Source of the DNA: Fodinibius saliphilus
GTDB taxonomy: Bacteria > Bacteroidota > Rhodothermia > Balneolales > Balneolaceae
NCBI RefSeq assembly: GCF_005869845.1
Contig: NZ_VAWF01000003.1
Span: 62,001-126,000, forward strand
DNA length: 64,000 nt
Direction: 5' to 3'
Positions 2,721 through 47,384 of this stretch are shown here, in pieces (the stretch's first letter is position 1; each line of letters starts with the position of its first letter). Position numbers and translations under genes: made by a program. Under the pieces are notes generated by a model. That model had not been told where the DNA came from, did not search any database, and saw nothing but the letters and a program-made list of their open reading frames with translations.

Positions 2721-4031
2721 TTAGCCGTCAAAGCGTTCCAGGACAATGGCATGTCCCTGTCCGCCTGCAGCGCAAGCGGCCACAAGTGCGAGCTCACCGT
2801 CTTCGTGATGAAGGCGATTTGCTGCGGTTGTTACAAGGCGGACGCCTGTAGCTCCGAAGGGGTGTCCCAGTGAAAGGGAGCCGCCCCAGCAGTTGAACGT
2901 ATCCATGGGGATTTCGCCCACCTTTTGATCGCGGTCCAGCTTCTCTTTGGCAAAAGTGTCGGAGTTTAATGCTTTGAGTACCGTCAGAATCTGTCCGGCA
3001 AAAGCCTCATGAAATTCAAACACATCGATATCGGAAAGTTGCAGGTCCATGGCATCTAACACCTTCGGGACCGCATAAGCGGGGCCCAGCAGCAGTTCAT
3101 CTTCGGGATCCTGAGCTACATAGGTATAGGCCCTTAAATACGCTTTGGGCGTAATTCCTTGTTGCAAGGCCGTTTCTTTCTCCATGATGAGAGAGGCAGA
3201 GGCTCCGTCGGTAAAGGCCGATGAGTTTCCGGCTGTAATGGTCCCGTGGGGCTTTATGAATGCCGGCGATAGTTTCTCCAGCTTCTCCATCGAGGTATCT
3301 TCGCGGAAGGTGTTGTCGTGTTCAATCGTATCGAAATCGGGAGGTACCGCTGCCGGCAGCAGCTCGGGATCGAGCCATCCTTCCTTTGTTGCTTTTGCCG
3401 CCAGCTGATGCGAGCGAAGCGCATACTCATCCTGCTCTTGGCGACTGATTCCGAAGTGGGCGGCCATCCGATCACAGCTTTCGCCCATCGTTTCGCCGGT
3501 CGAAAATTCAGCGATAGCGGGTATCTCCGGCAGCAGGTGGGAGGGGCGTAAGCCTTTGAAAAACTTCAGAAAATCGCTGATCGATTTATACTTACGCGCT
3601 TCCAACAGTTTTTGCCGAAACGTCTTGCGAAAGCGAATGGGGATGTCGGACATCGTTTCAGTGCCGCCGGCAAGTACCGCTTTGGCTTGTCCCGCTTTAA
3701 TCAGGTTGATAGCACTGGTAACGGCCTGGTTCGAAGAGATGCAGGCTTGCGTTACCGTATGGGCCGGAACGTGATTGGGGATGCCTGCGCCCAGTGCCGA
3801 CTCCCGCGCTACGTTGCTGGTGTTAACATCCTGTATAACCGTCCCCATGATAACCCGGTCGAGATTGCCGCCATCGATAGGGGCGCGGCTGATGATGCCT
3901 TCTACCGCCAGCCTGCCGAGGTCATAGGCCATTAAGTCGTTGTAGCCGGTCCCCGAACGCTGAAAGGGAATTCTGCCGCCGTCGACAATTACTGCTTCTA
4001 ACTGAGATCCATTGGTTGATTGATCAGTCAT
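2721..4031 (-). CDS. fadI: FadI-type 3-ketoacyl-CoA thiolase
   Basis: A 436-residue thiolase, the same length as E. coli FadI. The nucleophilic Cys is C97 in VTQACISSNQA. The active-site His lies in LSLGHPFGATG and the second Cys in VAACAAGGQGHA near the C-terminus. It cleaves 3-ketoacyl-CoA to acetyl-CoA and a shortened acyl-CoA. It is first in the operon, with fadJ 32 nt downstream. The extended insertion around residues 150-190 is typical of the FadI/trifunctional beta type. No fatty-acid regulator gene is adjacent. Confidence 0.94.
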   Translation of the reverse strand: MTDQSTNGSQLEAVIVDGGRIPFQRSGTGYNDLMAYDLGRLAVEGIISRAPIDGGNLDRVIMGTVIQDVNTSNVARESALGAGIPNHVPAHTVTQACISSNQAVTSAINLIKAGQAKAVLAGGTETMSDIPIRFRKTFRQKLLEARKYKSISDFLKFFKGLRPSHLLPEIPAIAEFSTGETMGESCDRMAAHFGISRQEQDEYALRSHQLAAKATKEGWLDPELLPAAVPPDFDTIEHDNTFREDTSMEKLEKLSPAFIKPHGTITAGNSSAFTDGASASLIMEKETALQQGITPKAYLRAYTYVAQDPEDELLLGPAYAVPKVLDAMDLQLSDIDVFEFHEAFAGQILTVLKALNSDTFAKEKLDRDQKVGEIPMDTFNCWGGSLSLGHPFGATGVRLVTTAANRLHHEDGELALVAACAAGGQGHAIVLERFDG

Positions 4032-4170
4032 AATATATATGTACGAGTGAAAGACAACGAATATGTTAATACAACTCTAAAATGGGTGAAACCAACCCCT
4101 AAATCAAGAGAAAACTTAACAGTGTTAACCTGGGGGAAATTCCCTGCTTTAAAATTGATTTAGAAATTGT

Positions 4171-4201
4171 TTTGTCAGATTGTAGATAATCCGTATATTT
4201 G
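4171..4201 (+). promoter_or_regulatory. Bacteroidota-type promoter for tRNA-Val
   Basis: TTTG at 4171-4174, a spacer of exactly 19 nt, and TATATTTG at 4194-4201 match the Bacteroidota sigma consensus TTTG-N19-TAnnTTTG. The mature tRNA begins 15 nt further on, so the predicted start site (about 4208) leaves a short 5' leader. Confidence 0.75.
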
Positions 4202-4216
4202 TGCTCTCTCAAAAAG

Positions 4217-4290
4217 GGGCGATTAACTCAGCGGTTTAGAGTGCTTCCCTTACAAGGAAGAAGTCGCAGGTTCGAATCCTGCATCGCCCA
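4217..4290 (+). tRNA. tRNA-Val (anticodon TAC)
   Basis: A full cloverleaf can be folded by hand. The acceptor stem is GGGCGAT/ATCGCCC, the D-stem ACTC/GAGT, and the anticodon stem CTTCC/GGAAG with loop CTTACAA (anticodon TAC at positions 34-36). The T-arm is GCAGG-TTCGAAT-CCTGC and the discriminator is A. The 3' CCA is not encoded. The length is 74 nt. A consensus promoter lies upstream and a strong terminator directly downstream, so it is a single-gene unit. Confidence 0.97.
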
Positions 4291-4294
4291 CTCT

Positions 4295-4331
4295 CAAGCC
4301 TTGCAAGTCATTGACTTGTGAGGCTTTTTTT
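4295..4331 (+). terminator. Rho-independent terminator after tRNA-Val
   Basis: AAGCCTTGCAAGTCA pairs with TGACTTGTGAGGCTT across a two-base loop (one internal mismatch region) and is followed by a run of seven T. It starts within 6 nt of the tRNA 3' end. Confidence 0.88.
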
Positions 4332-4557
4332 GTTTTTGTAGAAACCTTTTCTCGGTAGATATTGGAGAACCAAGAATTATCAGCCCTTCTAACTGGTGTC
4401 CAAATCCCTATGGTAATAAAAAGAGTGAAGAGTCCCTGTTTTGTAAAAAGTAAATTCTATATTTTAGCGCTGGGGTTTGACCAATCTTTCGAAATTATTA
4501 TGTTGCGTTACATTCTATCAAGAGAAATAGTGCCCCTGAAGCCATAGAAATGGAGTA

Positions 4558-5124
4558 ATGATGGTTTATGATCCCAAAAAACATAACCGCCGTTCTATCC
4601 GTCTAAAGGGACATGATTACGCATCGCCCGGTCTGTATTTTTTGACCATTTGTACCTATAAACGCCAATGTATTTTCGGGGAGATAAAAGGGGATAAAAT
4701 GTTGTTAAATTCTTGGGGAGAAATCGCCCGGGAAAACTGGATAAATACCGAATCCATTCGTGATAATGTGAGATTGGATGTGTTTGTCGTTATGCCGAAT
4801 CATATACATGGTATCATTGAGATTGTTGATTCTAAAAATATCGTAGGGGTGTATCGCAATACACCCCTACGATCAGACAGCCCTGTAAACCAATCGGAAT
4901 TTAAATCACCATCCGAAACTATTGGGGCAATTGTTCGGGGATATAAATCGACGGTTACCAAACAGATTAACAAGATTAGAAATTCACCGGGCGAAAAAGT
5001 TTGGCAACGAAATTATTATGATCACATCATCCGGGATAAAAAATCATTGGAGCGCATCCGCTATTATATTATTCAGAATCCAGCCCAATGGCAGGAAGAT
5101 CAGAATAATCCGATAAATGTTTAA
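4558..5124 (+). CDS. REP-associated tyrosine transposase (RAYT, Y1_Tnp family)
   Basis: This 188-residue single-strand HUH transposase has the double-His motif PNHIHG (H82, H84) and a candidate nucleophilic Tyr at Y129 in IVRGYKS. The RAYT C-terminal signature runs from KVWQRNYYDHIIRD to RYYIIQNPAQW. RAYTs act on REP/BIME palindromes and are usually single-copy domesticated relatives of IS200/IS605 transposases. Start choice: GGAG at 4552-4555 is only 2 nt from the first ATG (4558) but 5 nt from the second (4561), so the second may be used. The frame contains a perfect 34-nt palindrome at codons 95-105 that adds IVGVYRNTPLR without breaking the protein. Confidence 0.92.
   Translation: MMVYDPKKHNRRSIRLKGHDYASPGLYFLTICTYKRQCIFGEIKGDKMLLNSWGEIARENWINTESIRDNVRLDVFVVMPNHIHGIIEIVDSKNIVGVYRNTPLRSDSPVNQSEFKSPSETIGAIVRGYKSTVTKQINKIRNSPGEKVWQRNYYDHIIRDKKSLERIRYYIIQNPAQWQEDQNNPINV
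4840..4873. repeat. perfect REP-like hairpin inside the RAYT gene
   Basis: The arms ATCGTAGGGGTGTAT and ATACACCCCTACGAT are perfectly complementary (15 bp) around the loop CGCA. The start is in frame with the RAYT codons, and the palindrome is read as Ile-Val-Gly-Val-Tyr-Arg-Asn-Thr-Pro-Leu-Arg. It lies between the HUH motif and the Tyr helix, in a region expected to be a flexible linker. Confidence 0.93.
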
Positions 5125-30666: not shown

Positions 30667-30736
30667 CCAACCCAACATCCAACATTTAGCCTGCAACTTT
30701 TCAACATCCAACCTTTAACATTTAACCTTCAACCCC
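30667..30736. repeat. low-complexity CAACATCCAAC-type tract
   Basis: An intergenic run of short units of the form (C)AACAT(C/T)(C/T) and AACCTTT, e.g. CAACATCCAACATT and CAACATCCAACCTTTAAC, preceded by a GACGGACGACCG-type segment. Similar tracts occur at 31345-31412 and weakly at 33080-33130 and 53285-53325. The rest of 30483-30736 shows nothing else. Confidence 0.6.
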
Positions 30737-31207
30737 CTAACCTCTAAACCTTTCCGTCAGTCCCTTCAGGAAGTAGCGCAATATTTGATCCCCGCACTCG
30801 CGGTAGTTCTCATGTCCCTCACGACGGAACAGAGCACTCATCTCCGGTTTGGATATCGAAAAGCCGCCCTCCTCCAGTACATCATGCATATCTTCTTCGC
30901 GCAGTTTAAACGCCACTCGCAATTTCTTGAGCACAATGTTATTGGTAATGGGTGTTTTAATCGGTCGGGGTGGATGCTTATCGCTTTTGCCACGTTTATA
31001 ATAGATCAGGCCGTCCAGGAAATGGCCCATCAGCTCATGACTACAATCCGGGCCTTTTTCGCCTTCCGGCAGATCCTGGGTTTCAAAAATAGCAGCAACC
31101 TCTCCCCGTTCCGGTTTATAGCCGCGGAGTTTCAGAATCTTGGTAATTTCGTGATCATCAATATCCAGCATATAGCGGATGCTTTGGATGACGTCGTCAT
31201 TTCTCAT
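30737..31207 (-). CDS. yehS: YehS-like DUF1456 protein
   Basis: A 156-residue DUF1456 protein, the same length as E. coli YehS. It has two tandem DUF1456 repeats (about 4-65 and 85-150), each with a helix-rich core: RNDDVIQSIRYMLDIDDHEI and NNIVLKKLRVAFKLREEDM. Each repeat ends in a SKPEMSALFRREGHENY-like segment. The fold is small, helical and cytoplasmic. The function is unknown in any organism to my knowledge. The stop codon falls inside the low-complexity tract. Confidence 0.92.
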   Translation of the reverse strand: MRNDDVIQSIRYMLDIDDHEITKILKLRGYKPERGEVAAIFETQDLPEGEKGPDCSHELMGHFLDGLIYYKRGKSDKHPPRPIKTPITNNIVLKKLRVAFKLREEDMHDVLEEGGFSISKPEMSALFRREGHENYRECGDQILRYFLKGLTERFRG

Positions 31208-31516
31208 AAAAAGGGGAGTACTAAAAAAATTAGAAGTGGTTCGATGAAAGGTACGGTTTTGTTGAGGGGAAAGACACTTTTTTAGTGATTAAGTTTTAAG
31301 TGTGAATAACGGACGACGGGTGACCGATGACAGACGACCGACGAATCCAACCTTTAGCATCTAACTTTCCAACCTTCAACATCCAACATTTTAACATGTA
31401 ACTTTTAACCTCCAATAACACGAGTCAATTATCACCTTCCAAGCCCCGGAATAGAAATTGACGATGGTGGTAATTTTTAGTAGCTATGGGCATACTCATT
31501 AATCAACCCATATAGC
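31208..31516. other. intergenic region with low-complexity tract
   Basis: 309 nt without a supported gene. 31345-31412 repeats the CAACCTTTAGCATCTAAC motif family seen at 30667. The preceding 31303-31344 is rich in GACGA/CGACC units. The last 80 nt should hold the promoter of the small membrane-protein gene, but I see no clear boxes. Confidence 0.5.
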
Positions 31517-31714: not shown

Positions 31715-31723
31715 CAAACGTCT

Positions 31724-31866
31724 GTCATTGCGATGAGTACCGTGGGTTAACGGAACGACGCGGCAATCTCCTTGAAGCAACTGGTTGAGGTGTGAAGGTT
31801 ATCTTTTAGCTACTAGGCGAGCGGTGATCGGGAGATTACTTCGTCGGCAAGCCTCCTCGTAATGAC
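31724..31866. repeat. palindromic repeat element, full unit
   Basis: The left terminus GTCATTGCGATGAG and right terminus CTCCTCGTAATGAC are inverted copies (2 differences). The internal landmarks shared with the other copies are CCGTGGGTTAACGG, CGACGCGGCAATCTCC, GGTTGAGGTGTG, TTTAGCTACTAGGCGAGCGG and GATTACTTCGTCGGCAAGC. It is followed by the conserved tail ACTGCTTTTA. It is non-coding, about 143 nt. The remainder of 31715-32001 contains a degenerate CCACCCCGCTCCGCC segment also seen at 42952. Confidence 0.85.
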
Positions 31867-32001
31867 ACTGCTTTTAAAACCCACCCCGCTCCGCCTGTCG
31901 GCCGAGTACCCGTGGAGCGGCTGGTGAGTATAACTGCTGGATCCGCTAAAGTTCTGGATCTGGGCGTTTTTAAAACGGTTTACTTACTGAAAACTAATTG
32001 A

Positions 32002-32886: not shown

Positions 32887-33319
32887 AGATATGTACTATA
32901 GAGTTGGAGGATATTATGAAAAAACACGTTGGTTACTATACCTATATGCGGGATGGCAATAACAACAGGCTCAAAAAATTCTCAAACACCAATGCCCGTT
33001 ATCGCGAACCGTCGGTCGGCAAAGAAGCAATCTCCTGTAACAAAGTGTGACCGATGATGGCCGACGGACTAAAATATCCAACCTCCACCATCCTGCCTTC
33101 ACTCATCACGAATTCCCAATTACCCCGTATCCTGAATCTGCTGCCTTTCAGATACTAGGCGAACCTGTTCCGGGAGATTACTTCGTCGGCAAGCCTCCTC
33201 GTAATGACATTGCTTTTATTATTCCCCATCAACGCCTGGCATGGTGAGCGTAGCCGAACCATCTCTTTGAATCGATTGGCACAGGTATAGGGGATGCCCT
33301 TTAGATTCTACACCACCGC
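32887..33319. other. intergenic region with partial repeat units
   Basis: 433 nt with no supported gene. 33152-33208 is the right half of the GTCATTGCG-type element (TACTAGGCGAACC ... CTCCTCGTAATGAC). The linker TTGCTTTTATTATTCCCCATCAACGCC follows, then a degenerate unit starting GGCATGGTGAGCGTAGCCG up to about 33310. 33048-33130 has the GACCGATGATGG/CCAACCTCC low-complexity sequence. Confidence 0.6.
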
Positions 33320-39477: not shown

Positions 39478-40479
39478 ATGAATATACTTGAGTTTTTAAG
39501 AAAAGATGTGGTTGCCAATTGTTATAAAACCAAATCTTTTAGTAACGCTTGGGAAATATGGGGCAAGTTAATTAAACAAAAACTAGGGAAAAATTATAAT
39601 TGGGATGACATTTTAAACTTAGGTGAAGAATTATCCGAGGTATTTTTATCAACAAGGGGAGATGTTGAAGAAGGATTAAGTGTTGCTGAAGCAAATAGCA
39701 AAGCTTCTACTTCGGGTACAGCTTGGGAATGCTTAGTTGCTTGGTACCTAAACCTAGTATTTGTTAATAGTAGGGCTGTTGTTTTTAAAAAGACAGGAGA
39801 CGTGCCAACTCCACTTACAGATGGTCTTGAAGTGTTACACAAAAATACTAAAACGAATTCTGAGTCAGATTTGCTAGTCGTAGTTTTTCCTGACACTCCT
39901 CATTTTACCGATGAAATATTACAAGTTCCTATAACTAATGAGCGGTCAGTGCCTTATGTGCCAGATAAAAATATGAGACCAGCAAATCTATTTTCGGACT
40001 CTTACCCAGATAAAAGTTCGATTCAAGCATATGTAGATAAAGTAACAGAAGAAAAAATAGATGAATTTGAGGTCGGGGTAATACAGTGTAAAACAAATTG
40101 GAATGAAAATTCACAAATTCCAATGCTTTGGGACATTATCTATAGGCTTGGGGATAATGTAGATCAAGACATTCCCAACTTTAAAATTGGTGCGAATGGT
40201 TTTAGTAAGATGCAGTTGAAAAAATTCACATATTCATTTGTTACTGTACCAACTAATCCCCGGGCAAATTACAAAGCAACTTCTCTTGCTGTAAATAGGG
40301 TTAAGAACTTAACTGGCGGTAACTATTGGGGGTTCCCAAGGAAGCAAAGTGTTGCTGGTTCAATTAAAGAAATTTTTGATAATAATTTCATGAATGCCTT
40401 TGATGGTAGTATCAGGGAAAGTTTACAAGGTGCATTACATAATGATCTTAATTCTTTCGAGTATTTTCGCTTGGATTAG
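39478..40479 (+). CDS. predicted PD-(D/E)xK-type nuclease of the defence island
   Basis: A 333-residue protein. A helix with GTAWECLVAWY (E84) is followed by the strand SESDLLVVV (D131) and the strand VGVIQCKTNWN (Q203, K205). This is the order E..D..(E/Q)xK of restriction-endonuclease folds. The trailing NENSQIPMLWDIIY is a strong family-like signature, but I cannot name the family. There is no signal peptide. Its start is 15 nt from the divergent kinase start and its stop overlaps the methyltransferase stop by 4 nt. It may be a second restriction enzyme for the same methyltransferase or an effector controlled by the kinase. Confidence 0.75.
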   Translation: MNILEFLRKDVVANCYKTKSFSNAWEIWGKLIKQKLGKNYNWDDILNLGEELSEVFLSTRGDVEEGLSVAEANSKASTSGTAWECLVAWYLNLVFVNSRAVVFKKTGDVPTPLTDGLEVLHKNTKTNSESDLLVVVFPDTPHFTDEILQVPITNERSVPYVPDKNMRPANLFSDSYPDKSSIQAYVDKVTEEKIDEFEVGVIQCKTNWNENSQIPMLWDIIYRLGDNVDQDIPNFKIGANGFSKMQLKKFTYSFVTVPTNPRANYKATSLAVNRVKNLTGGNYWGFPRKQSVAGSIKEIFDNNFMNAFDGSIRESLQGALHNDLNSFEYFRLD

Positions 40480-42299
40480 TCAATATTTGTAAGTATTTGC
40501 ATCGCTATAGCTCTAGCCATTAATGGAGGAACTGCATTGCCAACAAGTGTGTATTGGGGAACATCATGTTTTCTACGACTACCACCTGTGGTTCTTTTAC
40601 CCTGGAACACAAAGGAGTCGTCAAAAGATTGTAGGCGGGCCATTTCCCTAACACTTAATGCCCTAGGTTCTTTATAGTGAATAAAGTCATCAGGCAAAGT
40701 GACGATTGTAGGAGAGGTACTGTTGGGGTCGAGCAAGTTATAGTTTCGTTTCTTTGTACTTACTCCTTTCTCTTTTAATTCTTCTTTGGCGTTATCATAA
40801 CTGCCATTCTTTTGTATTATTTGGAGCCTCTTTATTATATCGGCAGTATGATTACTAGCTTTATGATTTGGCAGTTTAACGCGATTTAAGTTCGCACTAT
40901 TAATTTTTCCTCTACCATCATGGTAATAGTTTTCTTCAATCGAATACTTTTCTAGTAATCTGCCTTCTCTTGACCACTCTGAATAGGTTTTGCCATTTTT
41001 CTTATTTAGGCTACCATCAATATTTCTTTTGGGTAGATACTGGCCGTTCGTCGAGTTGGTACTATATTCTTTGATGTGTCCACCACTTTTAAGAGTTTCA
41101 AGGTCATGAAGCGCTTCTTTAATAGTGACTTTATTTTGTGATAAAACTGTAGGGGTTGGCTTATTTGTAATCTTATTTTGGCCTTTTTTTGAAGCTATAA
41201 ATATAACTCGATGACGTTCTTGGGGAACTCCATAATCAGAAGCATATAAGTCAAATTCTTTTTCAACATGATAAAGGCTAGCATTTTTTACTTTTTCAGA
41301 AAGAGTATTACCTGTTTCTTCTACAATTTCTACGAGATCATTAAGGCATTCGTCAAGAGGCTTTAGGAAAATATTCAATCCTTTTTTTAATAAGGAAAAG
41401 TGTTCAAAATCTAAGTTGTCAATGGCATTTTGGATATGATTTGTGATGCTTTGACCATCGATAAATTGTAAGAAGTTATTAAACCCTGCTTCAAAATTAT
41501 CGTTATCTATATCACAGGCTGACTTAAAGTTGAGAACACTCCTATTAATTTCTTTAAGCTGTTCCCAATTCGATAGTATTCTTAATCCATGTCGGATGGT
41601 ATTTATTTCCTCGTTATTTTTGCTTTTTGCATAGCTAATATGTTTTGCAGTTAAGTCTTTTAGGAGTTTTTGAAGGGTTGTTACGAATTCTGTATTGAAA
41701 GAAGTTGAACTATTATTTTTTTCGCTTTTTATACGTTGAATGTATAGGTCAAATGCTGCTTTGTTTTCATTTTTAATAGTATGTCTTAATTGCTCAGCTG
41801 TGTTAATAATATCGTCTAATTCAGAGCGGTCAACTATTGAATTAATTCTTTCAATAATTTTCTTCAGAAAACGCCCCCCTTCTTTATTTTTTAATCCTGA
41901 AACATTTTCCATAACAAAGTATTTAGGCTTTAAAACCTCAATAACTTCTAAGTACTTACTGAAAAGTTTATCTTTCTTGTCAAACTTTCTACGTCTACCC
42001 GCTAAGCTAAAACTTTGGCAAGGTGGCCCTCCTGTTATTACATCAATACTTTCCCCGTCAAGTTCATCTTGTAACACATTAATAAAATCTGGGTCAGTTA
42101 TATCTTTTCTTAAAAATTTCGTTTTAAGTCCAAGTTGTTCGTTATATCGAACTCTATGCGTCAATTCACAATTTTTGTTTATATCACTGGCTAATAGGAA
42201 ATCATACTCTTTCCCATCCTTTTTTGCCTGGAGGAATCCTTCACTGAATCCACCAGCGCCAGCAAATAGATCAATAAATGTGATTTTCTTGTTACTCAT
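40476..42299 (-). CDS. cytosine-5 DNA methyltransferase with a large helical insertion
   Basis: A 607-residue m5C methyltransferase. Motif I is FIDLFAGAGGFSEG (8-21), motif IV is GGPPCQSFS with nucleophile C94, motif VI is ENVSG (E131), and motif VIII is YGVPQERHRVIFIA (357-369). Motif IX/X is near ALSVREMARLQSF and YTLVGNAVPP. Between motifs VI and VIII there are about 190 extra helical residues (about 150-340) where most enzymes have 20-40. It should protect host DNA from the island's nuclease(s). The target sequence is unknown, and CCWGG is a candidate only because of the EcoRII-like partner. Confidence 0.93.
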   Translation of the reverse strand: MSNKKITFIDLFAGAGGFSEGFLQAKKDGKEYDFLLASDINKNCELTHRVRYNEQLGLKTKFLRKDITDPDFINVLQDELDGESIDVITGGPPCQSFSLAGRRRKFDKKDKLFSKYLEVIEVLKPKYFVMENVSGLKNKEGGRFLKKIIERINSIVDRSELDDIINTAEQLRHTIKNENKAAFDLYIQRIKSEKNNSSTSFNTEFVTTLQKLLKDLTAKHISYAKSKNNEEINTIRHGLRILSNWEQLKEINRSVLNFKSACDIDNDNFEAGFNNFLQFIDGQSITNHIQNAIDNLDFEHFSLLKKGLNIFLKPLDECLNDLVEIVEETGNTLSEKVKNASLYHVEKEFDLYASDYGVPQERHRVIFIASKKGQNKITNKPTPTVLSQNKVTIKEALHDLETLKSGGHIKEYSTNSTNGQYLPKRNIDGSLNKKNGKTYSEWSREGRLLEKYSIEENYYHDGRGKINSANLNRVKLPNHKASNHTADIIKRLQIIQKNGSYDNAKEELKEKGVSTKKRNYNLLDPNSTSPTIVTLPDDFIHYKEPRALSVREMARLQSFDDSFVFQGKRTTGGSRRKHDVPQYTLVGNAVPPLMARAIAMQILTNID

Positions 42300-42800
42300 A
42301 TCAATATTTGACCCGATTGTTATTACTCAACTTATATAGTAAAAAATTGGACTGACACCATTATGTCACCTCAATCTAGGAAAGATTGGGTGTAGCAATA
42401 ATATCTTAAGGAATAGAATTGAAAAAGTCCAGGATTTGATCCTGTTAAATTTAAGGTATAGATAACTAAAATATTAGCTAAATAATGAGGAAATATAGAT
42501 TTTTGGAAAAGTAAGTTATTCAGAAAGTTTAAGTTACCTATCTTAGTGATGATTCTTTATCCAGAAAGTCATATACGTTGTGCGTTTTTACTCGTAAAGG
42601 GAAATAGGGCAGTAATACTAGTGAACGAAATAACCGGCACTTCAAAAATAGGGGTGTGTAAGGTAAAGTAATTCGTTGATGCGTGAAGATTACTCTTTAG
42701 CTACTAGGCGCACTTGAAAAGGGAGACTGCCGCGGTCTTCCGGAAAGTCGCCGGAAGCCCTCGCAGTGACATTGCTTTTATTACAAATACATCAACGCCC

Positions 42801-42938
42801 GTCATTGCGAGGAGTGCCGTGGGTTGACGGGACGACGTGGCAATCTCCCTGAAGCAACTGGTTGAGGTGTGGGGAGGTTGCCCTTTAGATTCTACGCGGA
42901 TTGCCATCGGGAGATCCTTCCACTCCGGTCAGGATGAC
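42801..42938. repeat. palindromic repeat element, full unit
   Basis: It begins GTCATTGCGAGGAG and ends GGTCAGGATGAC. The internal blocks GACGACGTGGCAATCTCC, GGTTGAGGTGTG and CCCTTTAGATTCTACGCGG match the other copies. The linker TGCTTTTA follows. A right-half copy with GCCCTCGCAGTGAC ends at 42770, 30 nt upstream, so units are tandem. Confidence 0.82.
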
Positions 42939-43140
42939 GCTGCTTTTAGCACCCACCCCGCTCCGCCTGCCGGCCGAGCACCCCTCCGGTGGAGGGGAAT
43001 AGTGTGGAGTGCAATCAAGATCGTTGCTGAAATTCCGGGTTTAGCAGTAACCAAATACCCGGCACTACAAAGTCCCCTCTGGAGAGGGGTGAGCTTCTGG
43101 TGATTGCCCAGAAGGTCGGGGTGTGTATAGGAAAAGCAAT

Positions 43141-43227
43141 TTTTTGAAGCATGGGAGGCTCCCCCTTTAGCTACTACGCGAGCGGTGATGGAGAAATTAC
43201 TTCGTCGGCAAGCCTCCTCGTGATGAC
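43141..43227. repeat. palindromic repeat element, right half
   Basis: TTTAGCTACTACGCGAGCGG, ATTACTTCGTCGGCAAGC and CTCCTCGTGATGAC followed by ACTGCTTTTA match the right half of the full units at 31724-31866 and 45924-46070. Confidence 0.75.
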
Positions 43228-43463
43228 ACTGCTTTTATTTTTACAGAAATTCAGGGTGCAGTTTTTTTGTTGGAAAGGGCGAGTTCGATGTATGACAGAG
43301 GCGGCTCAGCTCTATGTTGCCGGTCCGGAATGTTGCAAATAAGTCCAGCAGTGCCTAACATGGCAGTAGTTATCATCCCGCGACAGTTATAGCTTTTAGG
43401 ATGATAGTATTTCTTTTGTACGACAGACTAGAACATATAACCTGTCATAAACTTGGGTTGTGT

Positions 43464-45689: not shown

Positions 45690-46085
45690 GGTTTGTCACT
45701 GCTTTTATTATTCCCCCATCAACGGCTGTCATGGTGAGCCCATCTATGCTAAAGCTTCGAAGGGCAGGCGTAGCCGAACCATCTCCCAGAAATAATTGGT
45801 GCCCTTTAGATTCTACGCGGATTGCCATCGGGAGATCCTTCCGCTCCGGTCAGGATGACACTGCTTTTGGCACCCACTCACGAAATGACACTACTTTAAA
45901 AGGTACACATTAAAACAACGCTCGTCATTGCGAGGAGTACCGTGGGTTGACGGGACGACGCGGCAATCTCCTTGACGCAACCGGTTGAGGTGTGAAGGTT
46001 ACCCTTTAGCTACTAGGCGAGCGGTAATGGGTAGATTACTTCGTCGTTACAAGCAACTCCTCGTAATGACATTGCTTTTATTTTG
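45690..46085. repeat. tandem array of palindromic repeat units (two units)
   Basis: The linker CACTGCTTTTATTATTCC (45696-) precedes a degenerate unit 45728-45859 (GTCATGGTGAGC ... GGTCAGGATGAC). A second linker leads to the full unit 45924-46070 (GTCATTGCGAGGAG ... CTCCTCGTAATGAC), followed by ATTGCTTTTA. No gene is present in this 396-nt stretch. Confidence 0.82.
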
Positions 46086-46379
46086 TTAGCGTATAAGCTC
46101 TTCATACAAGTCCCGCCAGTCGGGGTTTAACTCTTCGATCAAGTCTATTTTCTTTTGTCGAGAACCTGCCTTAATCTGTTTTTCTCGGTCGATCGCATCT
46201 TGCGGATGGTCGTATTCATCAATATATACCATTTTTGTGCAGTTGTACCGTTTTGTAAAGCCATCTGTCAATTGTTGCTTGTGTTGCCAGCCCCGTTTTA
46301 TAATATCTCCCGTCATACCGGTGTAGAGTACGGTGTGGTGGGGATTGGTCATGATATAGACGTGGTATTTTTGCTCCAT
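46086..46379 (-). CDS. single-domain GIY-YIG endonuclease-like protein
   Basis: A 97-residue GIY-YIG protein (UPF0213-like). YHVYIMTN and VLYTGMTGD supply the paired GIY and YIG-type strands, Arg/His follow in IKRGWQHK, and the metal-binding Glu is in DREKQIK. The C-terminus ends LNPDWRDLYEELIR, common in this family. The function is unproven; the fold suggests DNA cleavage. The gene occupies the linker between a full repeat unit (45924-46070) and an identical left half-unit (46435-46505). Confidence 0.88.
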   Translation of the reverse strand: MEQKYHVYIMTNPHHTVLYTGMTGDIIKRGWQHKQQLTDGFTKRYNCTKMVYIDEYDHPQDAIDREKQIKAGSRQKKIDLIEELNPDWRDLYEELIR

Positions 46380-46434
46380 AAGGTGGTAAGACCTATTTGA
46401 GCGGTATCCCTTACGATCTTGTTAAACAACGCCT

Positions 46435-46505
46435 GTCATTGCGAGGAGTACCGTGGGTTGACGGGACGACGCGGCAATCTCCTTGACGCAACCGGTTGAG
46501 GTGTG
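46435..46505. repeat. 71-nt direct repeat, identical to 45924-45994
   Basis: From GTCATTGCGAGGAG to GGTTGAGGTGTG every base agrees with 45924-45994 by eye. The copy stops after the left half; the right half is missing. With the first copy it brackets the GIY-YIG gene. Confidence 0.92.
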
Positions 46506-46613
46506 TACGTAAAAGAAATTGGGTGATGGGAGTACTAACGTTCCTATTTGCCTCTTTCCTTGTGCCATTGTATATAACCGGATAAAATAGTTATACAATA
46601 GAGGAATAGGGCT

Positions 46614-47384
46614 ATGTCAGAAATCACTACTATTGACGGCGTACTTGATGAGCTCAATAATATCATCGAAACTACGGTGGAAGAGGGGAGCCCGCTGGCA
46701 ATTTTTGCCTTTGTATATCGCAGAACTACTGCCAAGATAGCGGAGGGGATTGCCAAGGGGCAGTTCGAAGATCCCCAAAGGATGGAGCGTTTTGACGTCA
46801 TTTTTGCGAAGAAATATATTCGGGCCTTTTGGTCTTACCGCCATGATAAGCCGGTAGCGGTTGTGTGGAAAATTGCTTTTGATGCTGCAGTGGATTCTGG
46901 CGGTCGAAAAGCGGTTATTCTTCAGCACCTTCTGTTGGGAATGAATGCACATATTAACCTGGACCTAAGTATTGCGGCAGCTGAGACTGTTCCAGAGGGA
47001 CAAATACAGTCCCTCAAGAAAGATTTTATGATGGTAAATACCCTGCTCGAGGAGTTGATAGATGAGATGCAAGAACGGATTGCCCGAGCGTCACCGCTGC
47101 TGTTTTTGATCGATTGGATGGGGAAGAAAAATGATGAGGCTGTTGTTAATTTCAGCATCAGGAGGGCCCGATATTTTGCATGGAATGCCGCTGTAACCCT
47201 GTCGCATGCCGATGAGCAGGAGAAGGAGCATATTATTCGTGATATGGATGAGCACATTGCAAAGGTTGCTAAGGGTGTGCTTGCTCCTCCGGGTTTTTTG
47301 ATTCCCAAAGTCCTTAGCCTGATAGGCATGTTTGAGGAAAAAGAAATCTTGGTGGTTGTTGAGAAGTTGAAGGGCGAGGGTTAG
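46614..47384 (+). CDS. DUF5995 family protein
   Basis: A 256-residue cytoplasmic, mostly helical protein. The segment VILQHLLLGMNAHINLDLSIA is the DUF5995 hallmark, preceded by YIRAFWSYRHDKPVAVVWKIAFDAA. The conserved His and Asn suggest a metal or ligand site, but no activity is known to me. The last ~40 residues (GVLAPPGFLIPKVLSLIGMFEE) are hydrophobic and may be membrane-peripheral. It stands alone between repeat regions. Confidence 0.85.
   Translation: MSEITTIDGVLDELNNIIETTVEEGSPLAIFAFVYRRTTAKIAEGIAKGQFEDPQRMERFDVIFAKKYIRAFWSYRHDKPVAVVWKIAFDAAVDSGGRKAVILQHLLLGMNAHINLDLSIAAAETVPEGQIQSLKKDFMMVNTLLEELIDEMQERIARASPLLFLIDWMGKKNDEAVVNFSIRRARYFAWNAAVTLSHADEQEKEHIIRDMDEHIAKVAKGVLAPPGFLIPKVLSLIGMFEEKEILVVVEKLKGEG

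Follow-up and report, generated by a model that had tools for sequence, protein, structure and literature searches.

The window analysed here, a stretch of 64,000 nucleotides, contains an intact open reading frame of 97 residues (46379-46086, reverse strand) that encodes a single-domain GIY-YIG protein and lies between copies of a palindromic repeat. To the left of this gene there is a complete REPIN-like unit of two inverted CGTC/TGTC-tagged halves (45923-46071, forward strand, as are all repeat features given below), which forms a long hairpin when folded (z = -3.5 versus 200 shuffles), and to the right there is a half unit (46434-46505). The two flanking copies are identical over 71 nt (45924-45994 and 46435-46505) and share 98% identity over 82 nt; when 45913-46085 and 46424-46590 are compared in register, the mismatches fall at offsets 9, 10 and 82. 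We call the right copy a half unit because it departs from the unit beyond 46505. Between the repeats and the gene lie the ends of a linker, TGCTTTTATT on the left (46073-46082) and AACAACGCC on the right (46425-46433, then TGTCATTG). The first-pass annotation had described both the gene between linker ends and the 71-nt identity, and both descriptions hold. The plain linker TGCTTTTATT..CATCAACG occurs without a gene near 42774, 33210 and 45702, and the gene occupies the place where other units in the window carry just this short linker. Read from the sequence, the gene and one duplicated half unit stand next to an existing unit, within the linker.

The unit has the form of a CGTC tag, ATTGC GAGGAG ... 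GCAAT CTCC and then GTAGATTAC ... CTCCTCGTAATGACA, and consists of two oppositely oriented hairpins whose tags lie on the outer sides. In the half unit, an ATTGC/GCAAT stem encloses a long interior and is followed by a CTC tail, and around the gene the tags of the flanking copies face the gene. Judged by sequence, each half unit in the window is a CGTC/TGTC-tagged hairpin that matches the published pattern of CGTC-tagged REPs. Another complete unit of the same repeat family, with 90% identity to the left unit, is found without a gene at 31723-31867, and right halves alone are found at 43163-43228 and, followed by the linker, at 33145-33209. Two further gene-less units have unlike halves as read by eye, one with a ATTGCGAG-type head on the left and an ATCCTGA-type head on the right (42800-42939), the other with a ATGGTGAG-type head on the left and an ATCCTGA-type head on the right (45727-45860). 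The first description needs one qualification, in that the repeat units are spaced unevenly across 31.7-47.6 kb and are dispersed repeats rather than a regular tandem array. The repeat block is adjoined by a gene for a 256-aa DUF5995 protein (46614-47384, PF19458), which the congeners keep with different upstream neighbours. Elsewhere in the window there are a cluster of direct repeats that resemble AACATCCAACCTTTAACATTTAACC in degenerate form (30669-31406) and a C-5 cytosine methylase gene (40476-42299, PF00145) facing a 333-aa ORF (39478-40479), the two being possibly a restriction-modification pair (39478-42299).

The window protein belongs to the GIY-YIG superfamily, as it has the Pfam domain PF01541 (E=2.3e-12) with its Tyr, Arg and Glu residues present. 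Among 31 aligned sequences Y8, Y19, G21, R29 and E66 are invariant, and Y8, Y19, R29 and E66 are presumably the catalytic residues of the domain. The AlphaFold model of the protein is confident (pLDDT 96.3); its nearest solved folds are the UPF0213 protein BH0048 and then Slx1, and a comparison by sequence places UPF0213 proteins and the N-terminal domain of a UvrC closest to it. Going by this model, the protein is a putative minimal Slx1/UPF0213-like GIY-YIG nuclease. Slx1 is a nuclease acting on branched DNA, and by analogy extruded REPs, whether hairpin or cruciform, would offer an Slx1-like enzyme a natural substrate. The host genome has three GIY-YIG genes. The product of the second is 73% identical to the window protein, and both sides of this gene are direct copies of another tagged repeat (TGTCATCCTGAGCCTG..GAAGGATCTC); the third is only 27% identical and has no such repeat flanks. 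The ATCCTGA-type head of the hybrid units in the window resembles the head around the second gene (L002), and two REP families appear to build these hybrid units (42800-42939 and 45727-45860).

The GIY-YIG family is carried by 73 of 128 genomes of the order, with up to 11 copies each among the genomes tabulated. We scanned a wider collection and fetched 80 loci at 59-77% identity. A hairpin with an unpaired CGTC or TGTC tag and a stem starting with AT, the pattern that defines CGTC-tagged REPs, lies within 400 bp of the gene in 78 of these 80 relatives, compared to a mean of 5.5 of 80 loci for 11 scrambled tags. Its density falls from 9.1/kb at 0-100 bp from the gene to about 0.2/kb beyond 1 kb and 0.17/kb at 7-10 kb. 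Thus, the expectation that other gene copies would have the same flanks holds at the level of the repeat superfamily, but the repeat sequence itself varies with the nuclease subfamily (see below). For a larger set we started from 195 gene matches, of which 189 remained after dropping fragments shorter than 60 residues and 174 had at least 300 bp of clean flank per side. When the left and right 400 bp were matched to each other without reference to the tag (score of at least 20), 124 of the 174 genes had matching flanks versus 6 of 243 control ORFs taken from these loci; under a looser tag rule, a hairpin was present at 158 of 186 genes versus 51 of 238 control ORFs. Altogether, a tagged hairpin, or a match between the left flank and the right, is present at 179 of the 186 non-duplicate genes, leaving seven, the 27% paralogue among them, as homologues at non-repeat positions, where the first-pass annotation had looked for evidence against itself. 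Three loci (L062, L063 and L108) duplicate L031, L033 and L032; they were removed in the 186-gene count and in the paralogue-pair test below, and kept in the 78/80, tag-orientation, 124/174 and Mantel counts.

In 31 of the 50 loci with REPs on both sides, both tags point outward and the gene is flanked by inverted REPs; a MITE or transposon would be expected to have terminal inverted repeats and a target-site duplication. In five of the 50 the tags point inward, like in the window, and the orientation of the gene relative to the REPs varies among loci. Hairpin-flanked homologues are found in Neisseria gonorrhoeae, where the hairpin adjoining the gene has an 8-bp stem and a 4-nt loop, in Sinorhizobium meliloti, Azospirillum lipoferum, Rhizobium sp. 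CIAT894 and Shinella, and in Sphingobium, Novosphingobium, Planktothrix and Spirosoma records. Our plasmid search returned 32 records, flanks were fetched for 12 (L051-L061 and L143), and among the 11 of these examined the weak exceptions were Rhizobium tumorigenes (L055), for which at most a weak repeat, some 200 bp downstream, can be discerned, and Photobacterium (L060), with a repeat on one side only. A tblastn search of phages gave no match to the nuclease. In the protein tree of 73 relatives, 59 rows could be labelled, falling into 21 phylum-level groups, and the host phyla are mixed, with 33 label changes versus the least possible 20; many forks of this tree are unresolved and paralogy is possible, so that horizontal transfer among host phyla is suggested by these sequences at most. 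One may ask whether the window locus is a local accident, in which a repeat was duplicated around a bystander or the assembly is at fault, given that half units sharing 71 identical nt might be misassembled; with the same arrangement present in unrelated genomes, including complete records, we give this explanation almost no weight.

Gene-less versions of gene-bearing sites, which the first-pass annotation had proposed to look for in close relatives, do exist. We compared filled and empty sites by reading the sequences, as MAFFT alignments misplaced the flanks. In one genome of the order (G041) a site reads flank-REPIN-gene-REPIN-flank, and in its sister genome (G038) the same site reads flank-one REPIN-flank, the site flanks being 91-92% identical; the two G041 REPINs agree exactly over their first 101 nt and diverge in their second halves, like in the window. 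The single REPIN of G038 is cut near its end by an IS110-type transposase (PF02371, PF01548; L225, G038:C1, about 3719-5009, reverse complement). G038 is the one genome that has many REP1 copies (see below) and in which no family gene is found at the window-protein threshold, though a second protein query gives one weak match. Gain and loss are indistinguishable at this site, because insertion within a REPIN and deletion between identical halves both fit. On Sphingobium plasmids the same intergenic place holds REP-gene-REP, or a single REP tagged at both ends, or neither. In TomTYG64 (L148:935-1090) the place of the REP-gene-REP of relatives is taken by a single hairpin tagged at both ends (CCGTCACCCCGGGTCAAGCCCGGGGTGACGG), whose sequence reads as the outer halves of the two REPs joined. 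A homing endonuclease would be expected to leave its recognition sequence interrupted at occupied sites and intact at empty ones; the G041/G038 and Sphingobium sites fit insertion into a REP, and loss by recombination fits them too. Among Sinorhizobium strains, REP-gene-REP is accompanied by a truncated second copy in Ak57, and a single hairpin is found in K101. On pSymB of Sinorhizobium meliloti (L052:3600-4500), a truncated copy of the gene's 3' end is placed between two inverted REPs next to the intact gene, and this copy looks like a decay form toward a gene-less REP pair.

Other sites lack both gene and repeats, or the gene alone. In Azospirillum lipoferum the whole REPIN-gene-REPIN block is found between sufB and sufC, and three relatives have neither. 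Planktothrix PCC7805 has repeats without the gene, and the neighbours further on differ; on a Planktothrix plasmid (L053) an MmeI-type enzyme and the DISARM gene drmA enclose a GIY-YIG/REP block, and another strain has the repeats, but no gene, adjoining defence genes. Runella lacks both the gene and the REPs seen in Spirosoma, and is too distant to place the junction. One candidate, the L212 site (G028/G031 versus G029), was not counted, as just one flank matches. The empty sites have diverged, and we could read no clean target-site duplication in them. For the window locus itself, the five congeners (L015-L019) yielded no empty site to compare; the upstream neighbours of the 256-aa gene differ in them.

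The REP type follows the type of nuclease. Over 160 genes, protein distance correlates with the distance between REP heads (Mantel r=0.56, reached in 0 of 2000 permutations), and the correlation is equally seen among 75 pairs of paralogues, each pair from a single genome (r=0.565, 0 of 500 within-genome shuffles). Counting a head as shared when at most two of 10 letters differ, 11 of 12 paralogue pairs at a protein distance <0.3 share their head, compared to 0 of 3 at 0.3-0.45 and 11 of 60 at >=0.45. Distinct sets of heads include ATCCTGAACTTGTTTCAGGAT, ATTCCTGCGGAGGCAGGAAT and ATGCTGAA..TTCAGCAT, beside the ATTGCGAG of the window, and both stem arms are changed together between the ATGCTGAA set and the ATCCTGAA set. 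As far as these sequence comparisons reach, the nuclease subfamily predicts the REP stem sequence, both across genomes and between paralogues.

We obtained a similar picture from the presence of two REP patterns and two nuclease types in the 128 genomes. GIY1 occurs in 13 of the 16 genomes with REP1 versus 11 of the other 112, and GIY2 in 18 of the 24 with REP2 versus 1 of the other 104; the bit-score cut-offs (90 for GIY1 and 100 for GIY2) were set after viewing the tables, and the co-occurrence is partly circular, since the REP patterns were chosen from gene flanks and the flanks themselves count. When labels were permuted within genera, 25 (REP1-GIY1) and 7 (REP2-GIY2) of 20000 permutations reached the observed value for the matched pairs, compared to 8874 and 17035 of 20000 for the swapped pairs, which show no association. 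We removed the flank copies for REP2 only, and REP2 copies more than 1 kb from the gene still track GIY2 (14/20 versus 5/108), with a weaker within-genus result (545/20000). The rule has departures on both sides: REPs without a close cognate gene are found in G038 (REP1) and in G008, G010, G013, G032, G059 and G067 (REP2), and 11 of the 24 genomes with GIY1 have no exact REP1 match, reflecting either variant repeats or an imperfect rule.

These results bear on the possibility that the protein is a housekeeping enzyme for DNA repair, and that the adjoining REPs are ordinary terminators or regulators. The protein matches the UPF0213, COG2827 and bacterial Slx1-like proteins (1zg2, 1ywl) in sequence and fold; the UPF0213 structures are titled hypothetical, and COG2827 genes of Caulobacter have been proposed as UvrC-like repair back-ups (PMC1839093), a role in keeping with a fold near Slx1 and UvrC. 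A survey of the GIY-YIG superfamily (PMC1564403) describes a large non-eukaryotic Slx1-like group, and its text contains no word beginning with 'palindrom' or 'intergenic'. However, the patchy presence and multiple copies of the family, its insertion inside the suf operon, a repeat type that follows the protein subfamily, and the much lower frequency of tagged hairpins at control ORFs all argue against a housekeeping role, which we consider highly improbable.

The repeats themselves resemble a known class. According to Di Nocera et al. 2013 (PMC3733652), CGTC-tagged REPs have a CGTC/TGTC tag, a stem of 8-9 bp starting with AT, a loop of 4-5 and a CCA-like tail, form inverted pairs, and occur in several phyla, including Neisseriae, rhizobia such as S. 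meliloti, A. lipoferum and Wolbachia; they were said there to lack a dedicated transposase. The tag, the AT stem and the inverted pairs are what we see beside the gene in N. gonorrhoeae, S. meliloti and A. lipoferum, but the halves in the window are longer (about 50-70 nt) than the published REPs, and here they have a GIY-YIG associate. The main text of a 2025 REP survey (PMC12306157) contains neither GIY nor transposase, and our search of titles and abstracts of open-licence PMC articles found no report of a GIY-YIG/REP link.

The arrangement also recalls REPIN-RAYT systems, in which a small nuclease gene is likewise flanked by REPs and the genome holds many gene-less REP pairs. However, the gene adjoining the REPs is here a GIY-YIG gene rather than a Y1 transposase of the unrelated HUH fold, the tag is CGTC rather than GTAG, and the Y1 genes in these genomes are without CGTC REPs. 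Y1/RAYT-type genes are present in 81 of the 128 genomes, and 16 of 20 sampled Y1 loci have matching flanks of their own, while one has a loosely tagged hairpin. GIY-YIG homing endonucleases, namely those of the I-TevI type and the freestanding seg genes, offer another comparison. They share the catalytic domain, and the contrast between repeat-only and repeat-gene-repeat sites recalls that between empty and occupied homing sites, but the very small protein described here has no DNA-binding tail domain and is not encoded in an intron, and the sites are dispersed REPs rather than one conserved gene.

With this comparison in mind, the nuclease could be a hitchhiker, that is, a homing-type parasite that lands in REPs spread by something else. 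Gene-less REPs are indeed more numerous than those beside genes (of 124 exact REP2 copies, 99 are remote from the gene), G038 keeps its REPs without a family gene at the window-protein threshold, REPINs are also hit by other elements, such as the IS110-type transposase in G038, and a pairing of nuclease and REP is predicted by this explanation as well. On the other hand, we found no other enzyme with these REPs, since the Y1 transposases of the same genomes carry different flank repeats; REP2 and GIY2 occur together in three genomes that gave no Y1 match (G002, G007 and G009), and REP2 away from genes tracks GIY2. We therefore regard the hitchhiker explanation as rather unlikely, though the most serious of the alternatives.

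We consider it probable instead that the GIY-YIG gene and its cognate REP make up one selfish element, similar to REPIN-RAYT but built on an unrelated enzyme. The sequence evidence for this reading lies in the REPs that flank nearly every gene, in the match between nuclease subfamily and REP type, and in sites that bear the gene in one genome and the repeat alone, or neither, in another, and it supports the association between gene and repeat family that was first proposed for this locus. Cleavage, homing and mobilisation of the gene-less repeats by the nuclease would follow from such an element. The REPs would be CGTC-tagged hairpins, either single or in inverted pairs of about 150 bp (REPINs), and the nuclease would nick or cut its cognate REP, perhaps while this is folded into a hairpin or cruciform. 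Through repair, or through recombination between copies of the REP, REP-gene-REP might then enter a site that already has a REP or, more rarely, a new one, and the gene-less REPs would be miniature, non-autonomous dependants of that nuclease. REPs can nevertheless persist without the nuclease, since most gene-less copies lie away from the genes and some genomes have REPs without a close cognate gene.

In a wider form, single-domain GIY-YIG nucleases would be dedicated mobilisers of CGTC-tagged REPs across bacteria, each subfamily recognising its own hairpin, and would constitute a second, independent REP-enzyme system that has converged with REPIN-RAYT; we put this generalisation at about even odds. 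The pairing of CGTC-tagged REPs with one small nuclease offers a testable answer to the question of how these REPs spread, and many natural nuclease-hairpin pairs are available for its study. Genes that are often annotated as excinuclease subunit C, or proposed to be repair back-ups, would be recast as parts of selfish elements.
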